Of a stretch of DNA of 32,005 nt, positions 18,372 through 22,056 are shown in pieces. The position numbers were made by a program, and so were the translations under genes. The first letter of the stretch is position 1; each line of letters begins with the position of its first letter. The DNA comes from Desulfuromonas sp. (GTDB lineage Bacteria > Desulfobacterota > Desulfuromonadia > Desulfuromonadales > Geopsychrobacteraceae), in the NCBI GenBank assembly GCA_002869695.1, contig PKUD01000173.1, positions 1 through 32,005 of the forward strand, given 5' to 3'. Under the pieces are notes generated by a model. It was not told where the DNA came from. It worked only from the letters and a program-made list of their open reading frames with translations, and searched no databases.

Positions 18372-18599
18372 ATGAAAAAGCCATTGTTACACATCTTCCG
18401 CAATACACCATTCGGCCGCGAAACCTTATTGCAATCGGCCTATTTCTGTCATCGCACGCAATTGCCGTTGTCGATTTACCTGCCTGAATCAAAAAGTTTT
18501 CTTCTCTATTTTGATTCCGAGGTGGTCCAGGTCGACCTGGATGACAGGGAGGATGTGTCATTTAACTTCAGGAATGCTGCCCCACCGTGTCGTATATGA
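18372..18599 (+). pseudogene. Truncated N-terminal gene fragment, possibly universal-stress-protein-like
   Basis: The first ~57 codons look like a real protein start: MKKPLLHIFRNTPFGRE, then an alternating hydrophobic pattern through LLYFDSEVVQVDLD. It has GGAG at the right distance from the ATG and a good promoter. The reading frame ends at 18599, antisense to the last 42 bases of umuC, and its final 18 residues look like read-through sequence. I recall similar starts on universal-stress-like (alpha/beta nucleotide-binding fold) proteins in Desulfuromonadales, but this is memory and not verified. The simplest reading is that a longer gene lost its 3' part when the lexA-umuDC cassette arrived. 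A short functional gene is the alternative. Confidence 0.5.
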
Positions 18600-19820
18600 G
18601 GGAGAGAGATTCACCTGTTTCATAAACCAGTCCTTTTGAGGACGTTGACCTCCGAACCAGACTTTTCCTCTACCACTGAAGTTGATGCTATCGATGGTCT
18701 GCATCAGGATATCATTCGACCGGCGATCGGATTCTGTATCAAACAGGCTGAGTTGAACACGATTCGGCGGGCAGAAATCACCCAGCATGACTCCCGCCTT
18801 TGCATAGCGATAACCTTCTTTCCATATGTCATGGAACAAACGCGCCGACAACCCCAGGACGTCTCGGGTATCAGAGCTCGGTCGGAGCAATGTGCCGGTC
18901 GCCGAGTTTGCGTAGCCGGGGCCGGCCTTATCAAACGGACTGGTGCGGATGAACACATTGACCATCCGGGCCAGCTGTTTTTCGCTTCTGAGCTTTTCAG
19001 TGGCACGGGCCGCAAATTCACAGACGGCCTGCTTGAGATCAGCGTAATGGGTAAGCTTCTCTCCGAATGACCGGGAACAGACAATCTGCTGTTTCGGTTT
19101 TGACGACTCTGCCAGTGCGAAGCAGCTTTCTCCATTCAATTCACAAACCGTCCGTTCCAGGACCACCGAATAAAGTCTCTTGATTTGGCGAGGGTTCATC
19201 TGGGCAAGCTGCAAGGCTGTCTTTATGCCATACCGATGCAGCGTCTTGGCATGCCTTCGCCCGACACCCCAGATTTCAGAAACAGGGGTAATTCCCAGCA
19301 GCCGCTGCTGCCTTGACGGATCTCTCAGGTCCACCACCCCCTGGGTCGCCTTAAATTTCTTGGCTGCAGAGTTGGCGAGCTTTGCCAGCGTCTTCGTGGG
19401 TGCGATACCAATACAAACGGGCACCCCCACATGTTGCGCTACGGTTGAGCGGATCTTCTGCCCATAATCATTCAGTGAGTGAATTCCGGACAGGTCAAGA
19501 AAAGCTTCGTCGATAGAGTAAACCTCGACATACGGGCTGAACTGTTCCAGTGTCTGCATCACCCTCGCTGAGATATCCCCATAGAGCGAGTAGTTGGACG
19601 AAAAGACCTGAATCCCGTGCCTTTTCACCTCGCCGCGAATCTTGAACAGGGGCACAGCCATCTTGACCCCCAGGGCCTTGACCTCTGGGCTGCGGGCGAC
19701 GACACAGCCATCGTTATTCGAGAGAACAACAATTGGGACGTTTTTCAATTCGGGACGGAACAGTCGCTCACAGCTGGCGTAAAAATTATTGCAGTCGACG
19801 ATGGCAAAGGTCCGGTTCAT
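18558..19820 (-). CDS. umuC: Y-family DNA polymerase UmuC (DNA polymerase V subunit)
   Basis: Catalytic subunit of error-prone polymerase V, active in translesion synthesis after DNA damage. The 420-residue length matches E. coli UmuC. The N terminus FAIVDCNNFYASCERLF carries the first catalytic aspartate and Y-family steric-gate region, and YSIDEAFLDL holds the second acidic pair. The C terminus ends with the conserved SPSYTTRW. The ATG at 19820 overlaps the umuD stop by four bases (ATGA), so translation is coupled. The gene appears intact; its end overlaps the antisense truncated gene. It forms an SOS cassette with umuD and lexA. Confidence 0.95.
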   Translation of the reverse strand: MNRTFAIVDCNNFYASCERLFRPELKNVPIVVLSNNDGCVVARSPEVKALGVKMAVPLFKIRGEVKRHGIQVFSSNYSLYGDISARVMQTLEQFSPYVEVYSIDEAFLDLSGIHSLNDYGQKIRSTVAQHVGVPVCIGIAPTKTLAKLANSAAKKFKATQGVVDLRDPSRQQRLLGITPVSEIWGVGRRHAKTLHRYGIKTALQLAQMNPRQIKRLYSVVLERTVCELNGESCFALAESSKPKQQIVCSRSFGEKLTHYADLKQAVCEFAARATEKLRSEKQLARMVNVFIRTSPFDKAGPGYANSATGTLLRPSSDTRDVLGLSARLFHDIWKEGYRYAKAGVMLGDFCPPNRVQLSLFDTESDRRSNDILMQTIDSINFSGRGKVWFGGQRPQKDWFMKQVNLSPSYTTRWGSIPEVK

Positions 19821-20263
19821 GAGTGGCGCAAGCTATGAACAACTGAAGTCGCGACACCAAAGACTTCAAGCTCGGCGTCTTCGGCAAGCTCGATCGGGGG
19901 ATATTGGTGGTTCATCGCAACGAGCCTCATTCTGGGCCTCATCTCCAGTCTCTTGACGGTCAACTCTCCGTCCACGGAGACAATCACGATATCTCCATGC
20001 GAGGCGGTAATCGACCGGTCAACAACCAGTACGTCACCAGGAAAAATACCGGCATCGACCATGGAGTCCCCGGCTGCGCGGACGAAGTAGGTCGCGGCAG
20101 GATTCCGGACGCAAAGTTCATTCAGATCCAGCTTCCGCTCACAATAGTCGGTCGCCGGGCTGGGAAAACCTGCGGTCACCGCATCCAGGAACAGCGGGAT
20201 ACCGAGTTGCTCAAAGTCACCACTCTCGCCAATATTTACGACTGACACGCTATCTCCTGACAT
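19817..20263 (-). CDS. umuD: UmuD-type S24 peptidase, polymerase V accessory protein
   Basis: Self-cleaving partner of UmuC. RecA-filament-stimulated autoproteolysis yields the active form in the family. The protein has the cleavage pair A31-G32 (TAGFPSP), catalytic S67 in GDSMVDAG and K104 in LTVKRLE. It has 148 residues from the ATG at 20263. A GTG at 20248 has a better GGAG ribosome binding site 6 bases upstream and gives 143 residues, so that start may be the real one. It lies 75 bases after the lexA stop on the same strand, with no terminator and no convincing promoter between, so a lexA-umuD-umuC transcript is likely. Confidence 0.92.
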   Translation of the reverse strand: MSGDSVSVVNIGESGDFEQLGIPLFLDAVTAGFPSPATDYCERKLDLNELCVRNPAATYFVRAAGDSMVDAGIFPGDVLVVDRSITASHGDIVIVSVDGELTVKRLEMRPRMRLVAMNHQYPPIELAEDAELEVFGVATSVVHSLRHS

Positions 20264-20338
20264 CTGTCTCTGTTTTTCGCTATAAATTCAACAAAGTTCA
20301 TCGGGCACAGGCGTCCGGTTTTCAGCAAAACGCCATGG

Positions 20339-20944
20339 TCATGCCCCCAGGTCGCGGAAAACACCTGTCACCTTGCCGACAAGCTGGATCTCTTCGCCGG
20401 GGTAAACCAGGATCGGTTTCAGGGTCTTGTTTTCTGGCTGCAAACGGATCAACTGCGGTTCGCGAAAAAACCGTTTCAGGGTCGCCTCGCCATCCAGTAT
20501 CACGACGACGATGTCACCGTTTTGAGCGGTGCTCTGCGGCTTGACGATGGCCATGTCCCCGTCCTGGATATGCGCCTCGATCATTGAATTTCCGGTCACC
20601 CGCAGCACAAACGAGTCGGCTGACTTGACCAGGCCGGCATCGACGGCCAAATAGTCTTCAACCGCTTCAACGGCCAGCCGTGGAGGTCCGGCCTGAACCT
20701 CGCCGACCAGCGGCAACGAGAACATGCGCCCGGTGCGGGAGAGGACAATCCCCAGGGAACTGCCCTTCTCGCGCTGAATGTAGCCTTTCTTCTCCAGAGC
20801 GGCCAGATGCCGGATCACTCCGAGGTTCCCGGAAACACCCAGATGACGGGCAATCTCCTGCAGGGTCGGCGGGAAACCGTGACTGGCAACATAATGAACG
20901 ATAAAGTCGTAAACCTGCTGCTGACGCTGAGTGAGAGTGCGCAT
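20339..20944 (-). CDS. lexA: LexA repressor with divergent DNA-recognition helix
   Basis: SOS repressor of 201 residues. An N-terminal winged helix (about 1-66) is joined to an S24 autocleavage domain. The cleavage bond is A85-G86, with catalytic S120 (GNSMIEAH) and K157 (ATLKRFF), each one position later than in E. coli LexA. The recognition segment SGNLGVIRHLAAL is unlike the E. coli or Bacillus versions, so a different operator is expected. The ATG at 20944 has GGAAGG upstream; the TTG at 21004 is the -35 box. It is probably autoregulated through the palindrome at 20962-20981 and co-transcribed with umuDC. Confidence 0.95.
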   Translation of the reverse strand: MRTLTQRQQQVYDFIVHYVASHGFPPTLQEIARHLGVSGNLGVIRHLAALEKKGYIQREKGSSLGIVLSRTGRMFSLPLVGEVQAGPPRLAVEAVEDYLAVDAGLVKSADSFVLRVTGNSMIEAHIQDGDMAIVKPQSTAQNGDIVVVILDGEATLKRFFREPQLIRLQPENKTLKPILVYPGEEIQLVGKVTGVFRDLGA

Positions 20945-20961
20945 GGCAAAACCTTCCGTAC

Positions 20962-20981
20962 TAGTTATTTTAAAGTAACTA
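20962..20981. promoter_or_regulatory. Candidate LexA operator, 20-bp palindrome
   Basis: Minus-strand TAGTTACTTTAAAATAACTA reads as a palindrome with one mismatched pair (position 7/14). It begins at the -10 element and ends 18 bases before the lexA ATG, a normal place for an autorepressor site. It differs from the E. coli CTGT-N8-ACAG, the Bacillus CGAAC-N4-GTTCG and the GGTT-type box reported for Geobacter. Confidence 0.6.
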
Positions 20982-21004
20982 TCACGCCCCGATTGAACTG
21001 TCAA
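20976..21004 (-). promoter_or_regulatory. Promoter of lexA-umuDC
   Basis: Minus-strand TTGACA (21004-20999), a 17-base spacer and TAGTTA (20981-20976), with TG in the extended -10 position. The consensus -35 and weak -10 overlap the palindrome. Confidence 0.6.
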
Positions 21005-21111
21005 TCATTGTCATCCCGGGACAGAAGGCACAAACAGGTTCAGGCGGCCGGATGTCGGAAAAGTCCTGTTTTCAGGTGACGTCATCGCCCTGTTTCTGTA
21101 ATGATGAACAG

Positions 21112-22056
21112 ATGGAACTGGAAAAGCAGAAAATGACCGTCGGCACGGAAGACTGGCTGAAGATCCCGCCGGAGCTTGATGATGGCCTGAGCCGGAAGGG
21201 ACTGAGCAAGCGCCAGGCGCGGCGCTGGGCCCTGGTGCTTGAGGCCCGCCGGCTCAGCTACCGGAATGAACGGGACGACGAAGGCTGGCAGCTGCTGATC
21301 CACCGGGAGGATTTCCAGAGGGCGTTGCGCGAGTTGCGGCACTTTGAAGAAGAGAACCGCAACTGGCCGCCGCCGCTGCCGGAAGAGAAACCTCTGCAGG
21401 ACAACCACCTGGCGACACTTTCAGTCCTGATGCTGCTGGCGACTTTTCATAACCTGACCCTGCTGGACCTTAACCTGGCCGGCCACACCCCGGTCGACTG
21501 GAACCTGCTCGGCAACGCCCATGCCGGAAAAATCATGAATGGCCAGTGGTGGCGGCTGGTTACCGCGCTCTGCCTGCATGCCGACTGGCTCCACCTGCTT
21601 GGCAACCTGGTTATCGGCGGCGTTTTCATCGTCCGCCTCTGCCGCGATCTCGGCTCCGGACTGGCCTGGAGCCTGTTGCTCATGTCCGGCGGTACAGGCA
21701 ACCTGCTCAACAGCTATCTGCAGCAACCGGACCACCGGGCTGTGGGAGCCTCCACTGCGATCTTTGGTGCCGTCGGCATCCTGGCGGCACTCAGTCTGGT
21801 GCGTTATCGCCACAACCTGCGCCGCCGCTGGCCGTTGCCGGTAGCCGCGGCCCTGGGGCTGCTGGCTCTGCTCGGCGCAACCGGCGAGCGAACCGATGTA
21901 GGTGCACACCTGTTCGGATTTTTCTGCGGTTTCGGCATCGGCTTTCTCGCCGAGAATCTGATCGGACGACTGGGGGCACCCGGCCCACAGCTCAATCGGC
22001 TGCTGGCTCTCGGCTGTGTCGCGGTGGTTGTCACATGCTGGTGGCTGGCCCTCTGA
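21112..22056 (+). CDS. Rhomboid-family intramembrane serine protease with N-terminal extension
   Basis: Cleaves transmembrane substrates within the membrane. The 314-residue protein has a hydrophilic N-terminal part (about 1-100) rich in Arg and Glu that resembles no domain I recognise. The rhomboid fold begins near residue 102. The conserved HADWLHLLGN stretch is present, the nucleophile is S214 in GASTAIFG, and the histidine is H266 in VGAHLFGF. The final membrane segments reach residue 313. The start is uncertain: the ATG at 21112 and the ATG at 21133 both have weak ribosome binding sites. It is divergent from lexA and is followed by a separately promoted DUF3014 gene. Confidence 0.85.
   Translation: MELEKQKMTVGTEDWLKIPPELDDGLSRKGLSKRQARRWALVLEARRLSYRNERDDEGWQLLIHREDFQRALRELRHFEEENRNWPPPLPEEKPLQDNHLATLSVLMLLATFHNLTLLDLNLAGHTPVDWNLLGNAHAGKIMNGQWWRLVTALCLHADWLHLLGNLVIGGVFIVRLCRDLGSGLAWSLLLMSGGTGNLLNSYLQQPDHRAVGASTAIFGAVGILAALSLVRYRHNLRRRWPLPVAAALGLLALLGATGERTDVGAHLFGFFCGFGIGFLAENLIGRLGAPGPQLNRLLALGCVAVVVTCWWLAL

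Follow-up and report, generated by a model that had tools for sequence, protein, structure and literature searches.

The window, the 32,005-nucleotide stretch of DNA analyzed here, carries lexA, umuD and umuC in close succession on the minus strand, and a 20-bp palindrome lies just before lexA. The features of this locus, from upstream to downstream, are as follows.

20999..21004, minus strand: TTGACA, putative -35 element, with 17 nt separating it from the operator (from the sequence and its conservation in relatives)
20962..20981, minus strand: candidate LexA operator, TAGTTACTTTAAAATAACTA, with half-site AGTTACT (plus strand TAGTTATTTTAAAGTAACTA)
20952..20957, minus strand: GGAAGG, putative ribosome-binding site before lexA, read from the sequence
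20339..20944, minus strand: lexA, 201 aa, LexA DNA-binding domain and S24 peptidase
19817..20263, minus strand: umuD, second gene of the presumed operon (NF007621, 161.3 bits against a cut-off of 110)
18558..19820, minus strand: umuC, third gene of the presumed operon (NF002955, 565.8 bits against a cut-off of 431)

In profile searches the window LexA matched the TIGR00498 lexA model at 202.5 bits against a cut-off of 110.95, and it scored above the cut-offs of both PF01726 and PF00717, as expected for a protein that joins the LexA N-terminal domain to an S24 peptidase. Alignment to E. coli LexA and a residue check located the Ala-Gly cleavage site and the Ser and Lys of autocleavage, and from this site and dyad the protein is predicted to be a self-cleaving LexA. 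The recognition helix SGNLGVIRHL, to which the earlier note had drawn attention, occupies residues 38-47 and aligns without gaps to residues 38-47 of E. coli LexA. This lexA is the sole PF01726 gene found in the window's genome, which is 96.84% complete. Six named relatives share at least 58% identity with the protein, four of them labelled Desulfuromusa, Desulfuromonadaceae or Desulfuromonadales, one Deltaproteobacteria and one Chloroflexi, which makes the Desulfuromonadales the most likely source of the window. We rejected a lexA start at the TTG at 21004, to which the gene had previously been extended: that TTG belongs to the TTGACA hexamer and the palindrome would fall inside the gene, making the ATG at 20944 the better start.

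umuD starts 75 nt after lexA and shares 4 nt with umuC, an arrangement that suggests a single operon, and the three genes would be transcribed as such. The arrangement in relatives is different. In all 20 of the other loci that were sufficiently long (L096-L115), a Y-family polymerase gene follows lexA without an intervening umuD, whereas the window has umuD-umuC in this place. The three such polymerases tested, from L016 and from L309 and L310 (the latter two outside the 20-locus set), passed the DNA polymerase IV model and not the UmuC model.

The palindrome at 20962-20981 has complementary bases in 9 of its 10 pairs, confirming the description of a 20-bp palindrome with one mismatched pair, and it sits midway between the TTGACA hexamer and the lexA ATG, 17 nt from each. 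Palindromes of this length and quality are not rare in 32 kb (the window has three), but of 5000 mononucleotide shuffles just 13 produced an equally good one within 100 nt upstream of lexA. The motif TAGTTA-N8-TAACTA, allowing up to two mismatches, matched once in the window against 0.02 matches expected from shuffles. The claim that the palindrome covers the lexA -10 region held in part: the order TTGACA, 17 nt, TAGTTA points to such an overlap, but a strict sigma-70 scan of 20240-21120 returned no promoter.

We scanned 60 related genomes for TAGTTACTNTANRGTAACTA, the consensus of the relatives' sites. Within one mismatch, it was present in all 18 genomes that encode a LexA with a GN(L/V)GV helix, once in each and always before lexA; these 18 include one genome with a truncated lexA copy (G015) and one with lexA split over two contigs (G003). 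None of the remaining 42 genomes, 19 of which carry another LexA and 23 none detectable with PF01726, had a site within one mismatch, and it is only this absence that constitutes an independent test, since some of the same loci had supplied the consensus. At three mismatches the search reached background: the reversed control equaled or exceeded the real pattern in most of the 60 genomes, and the window's own genome gave 5 and 8 real matches against 19 and 20 for the reversed control. The putative -35 element is likewise conserved, with a TTGAC(A/C/T) hexamer 17 nt from the operator in 14 of the 18 loci and gaps of 11, 13, 14 and 16 nt in the other four.

The earlier note had suggested searching the genome for the site before recA and other SOS genes. 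When we scored candidate sites, those before lexA reached 26.7 to 34.7 bits in relatives and 29.6 bits in the window. The recA upstream regions of 15 of the 18 genomes (the other three yielded no recA or no recA start) gave at best -3.7 bits; none exceeded the best of 200 shuffles, and 5 of the 15 exceeded the shuffle mean. The dinB gene of the window's genome, on another contig, had no similar site (-4.9 bits), and the best other site scored in that genome reached 17.1 bits but falls within a gene that, judged by eye, is recF-like. No recognized SOS gene followed any of the 14 sites examined (L002-L015) among the 18 non-lexA matches to TAGTTA-N8-TAACTA with up to two mismatches in the own genome, or any of the eight non-lexA near matches from a second scan of that genome, as judged by eye from the protein starts of the downstream genes. 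With three mismatches allowed, the motif gave 245 matches per strand in the own genome against 1354 for the reversed control. Where it could be run, the search suggested in the earlier note thus came out negative, and we rejected a broad SOS regulon built on precisely this box. Occurrence of the motif at this one place had been named as grounds for abandoning the operator proposal; within the genome that is nearly the situation, but across genomes the single copy is conserved.

The window LexA most likely represses the lexA-umuD-umuC operon and little else, and umuDC would probably be controlled as part of that operon. Alternatively, LexA could be a global SOS regulator here too, acting through sites too degenerate for the scans used. 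The scans end at three mismatches, the recA and dinB promoters alone were scored directly, and LexA sites of other bacteria are often several bases off consensus, all of which leaves this alternative some room. We nevertheless consider it unlikely, given the distance in score between the 15 recA regions and the lexA sites, the equally poor score of dinB and the position of the best remaining site within a gene. Geobacter LexAs, moreover, reportedly do not bind the recA promoter, a result ascribed to work by Jara in 2003; for the same reason, a lack of recA control is not decisive for the name LexA.

LexA boxes differ between phyla. To relate box to helix, we compared 138 LexA loci, a part of all matches in the class, numbering helix residues by the ungapped alignment to E. 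coli LexA. Boxes were chosen by a GT-N12-AC frame and by how palindromic they were, the outer base playing no part in the selection, and were called strong when at least 7 of 10 pairs matched. Strong palindromes were present in 81 of the 138 loci, against 3.4 expected from shuffles. Among the 41 strong-box loci with Arg45, the outer bases of the two halves were A/A in 31, A/G in 4, C/C and T/C in 2 each, and A/C and C/G in 1 each, and G/G never occurred. All 39 loci with Lys45 had at least one outer G (34 G/G, and 5 with G in one half plus one A), and the single His45 locus was A/A. Weaker boxes were then admitted (4 of 10 pairs, within 100 nt, a limit that excludes L098 and L099, whose boxes lie some 210 nt away from the lexA match). 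Of 67 Lys45 loci, 57 were now G/G and 7 had a single outer G, whereas 3 lacked it altogether (L220 and L285, A/A; L249, C/A); G in both halves was still seen in 0 of 41 Arg45 loci.

Other positions of the box co-vary with the helix as well. In the 73 loci that passed when the fourth base was left out of box choice, the Gly39-Gly42 combination went with T (42 loci), Gly39-Pro42 with A (24 loci) and Ser39-Gly42 with G (7 loci), so that any rule linking Gly42 or Pro42 to the fourth base is limited to Gly39. The seventh base was T/T in 15, mixed T and C in 13, and G/A in 1 of the 29 Gly39-Asn40 types, and C/C in 36 of 41 Gly39-Thr40 types. An AGTTA box accompanied the xGN(L/V/F)GVx(R/H)HL helix in 33 of 33 distinct loci, three of which (L206, L208 and L210) have one mismatch to the degenerate frame; for L206 the automatic rule took another palindrome, and neither L208 nor L210 passed it as palindromic, but each of the three has an AGTTAC half-site, and the counts were kept as computed. 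Five loci with GN helices of other types (L244, L249, L252, L257 and L295) showed no AGTT box near the start. The outer A thus goes with Arg45 and the seventh T with Gly39-Asn40, a pairing that suggests which residue may read which base, although in the window's group residues 39, 40, 44 and 45 vary as a set and single-residue assignments are inseparable there. Residues 42 and 45, which co-vary with box letters, are among the E. coli LexA DNA contacts given in PMC3091678, namely residues 39, 41, 42, 44 and 45.

These data also bear on whether the palindrome is the site of some other regulator, or a promoter element, that LexA does not bind. It overlaps the expected -10 region, and promoter function could thus explain why some of its sequence is retained. 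Both arms are conserved, however, including the one downstream of the -10 position, no site within one mismatch was found in the 42 genomes lacking the GN(L/V)GV type of LexA, and the box letters follow the LexA helix letters across the class, which together render this explanation very improbable.

The co-varying sequences are related, and many are counted repeatedly, such that the phylogenetic independence of the co-variation is limited. We built trees of 79 of the 81 strong-box loci with the helix columns excluded, leaving out L124 and L129 as short proteins. The best tree has six Lys/Arg switches at residue 45; on well-supported branches there were two independent Lys/Arg pairs in one tree and three in the other, too few for the sign test to reach significance, and it was not significant. 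Inside the Lys-rich clade, Arg occurs in L217/L224, five NRHL rows (which group with L217/L224 in one of the trees), L288, L256/L258, L284/L289 and L250/L268/L298, and every one of these Arg rows is without G in at least one half. The change to Pro42 occurred once on the tree, giving one independent pair. L284 and L289 stand apart in the tree and yet match the window in having the helix SGNLGVIRHL with a box of its kind; their C-terminal domain is nearest the GT..K types, and the rest of the N-terminal domain, with the helix excluded, leans only slightly towards the GN type. Helix and box may have arisen there by convergence or by domain exchange, both being compatible with these sequences.

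We give an even chance to the broader proposal of a natural recognition code across the class, in which Lys45 would select G, and Arg45 would select A, C or T, as the outer base; provided that residue 39 is Gly, Gly42 would select T and Pro42 A as the fourth base; and residues 39-40 would set the seventh (Gly-Asn for T, Gly-Thr for C). Protein and operator would have switched together several times, perhaps since control by each LexA extends to little beyond its own polymerase operon, leaving a single operator to change.

The box of Geobacter sulfurreducens LexA is given in PMC8565304 as GGTT-N10-AACC. The window box, AGTT-N10-AACT, has the same xGTT-N10-AACx frame and differs in its outer base, which is A in both halves instead of G. 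In families f3 and f17, and in many class-level relatives, lexA has GGTT boxes such as GGTTATCATTTGACAACC, and mixed AGTT..AACC boxes occur in L105, L236, L237 and L302, within the same set of LexA loci. Because the frame is shared and mixed boxes appear in the same LexA tree, the window operator is, by its sequence, a variant of the Geobacter-type 18-bp box and not a separate class. The earlier note had described the palindrome as unlike the Geobacter GGTT site and proposed a new operator class. A class unrelated to the Geobacter box is the least probable of the readings considered here and is already contradicted by the shared frame: the outer and seventh bases do differ, but the length, the GTT-N10-AAC core and the position before lexA are all shared, and the mixed boxes bridge the two forms.

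The G. sulfurreducens system resembles that of the window in its 18-bp palindrome, its GTT-N10-AAC core, the lexA autoregulation that is proposed for the window, and the lack of any sign of recA control, for the window's LexA type in the 15 recA regions scored. The window box differs from Geobacter-type boxes in its outer A and in a seventh T where the relatives' GGTT boxes have C, and the window's helix is of the GN..R type whereas the relatives with GGTT boxes, from which this helix comparison is drawn, have GT..K. E. coli LexA shares the fold, the ungapped recognition helix alignment and the cleavage residues, but its contact residues Ser39, Asn41, Ala42, Glu44 and Glu45, as listed in PMC3091678, are Gly, Leu, Gly, Ile and Arg in the window LexA, and its box CTGT-N8-ACAG, described in the same paper as a 16-bp palindrome, differs in half-site letters and spacing. 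UmuDAb of Acinetobacter, according to PMC8565304, is also a LexA-like repressor with a role seemingly limited to error-prone polymerase operons; unlike that system, the window has a TIGR00498 LexA beside a separate UmuD. Among the matches listed in an open-access literature search, there was no report of the window box or of a LexA helix-box code in this group.

We consider it highly likely that the palindrome is LexA's own operator, a Geobacter-box variant controlling lexA-umuD-umuC whose letters go with those of the helix. Two observations support the proposal that LexA autoregulates through this site: the site occurs together with this LexA type, and helix and site co-vary. Two LexA subunits would bind the two AGTTACT half-sites, starting 17 nt after TTGACA, and the bound repressor would block the promoter and shut off the operon. 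DNA damage would then release the operon through RecA-stimulated self-cleavage of LexA, and the regulon would probably consist of this one operon alone. Within this class, natural helix-box pairs form a graded series, and each of the 18 genomes checked has a single strong operator; the series would permit direct tests both of which residue reads which base and of how a repressor can alter its site while keeping control.

In the window's family, f1, 17 of 37 genomes have no PF01726 LexA match, including G001, G004 and G026, which are rated 100% complete. G001, of the same genus as the window, has neither a PF01726 LexA nor an operator site; it retains umuDC, with no operator in the approximately 100 nt available upstream. 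The order's other LexA type, about 40% identical and with SLGTVQNYL or a similar sequence as its helix, carries close to its promoter a direct repeat resembling CTTACGCAAAACTTACGCA in place of this palindrome, and such repeats were read by eye upstream of lexA in L117, L118, L120, L121, L122 and L123.

Six lexA copies had seemed to contain in-frame TAG codons, a reading that was dropped: L250 and L268, the two copies translated, give the full 200 aa without an inner stop, and the TAG is probably the normal stop codon where the match ends.

In ten translated relatives, the space separating lexA from the Y-family polymerase gene holds a conserved ORF, roughly 80 aa long (IRVGVIHGPGG...PVWFDLNRR...), at L016:3106-3360 and in the same place in L096, L097, L100, L101, L103, L104, L109, L110 and L115, with L016 repeating L096. 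The one copy tested, from L101, had no Pfam or NCBIfam match at E 0.01, and the window's 75-nt gap between lexA and umuD is too short for such an ORF. Finally, in G018 (L099) and G031 (L098) the operator lies about 210 nt from the lexA match instead of about 15, and the intervening stretch holds an inverted repeat of the type GTGTCCATCCGG/CCGGATGGACAC.
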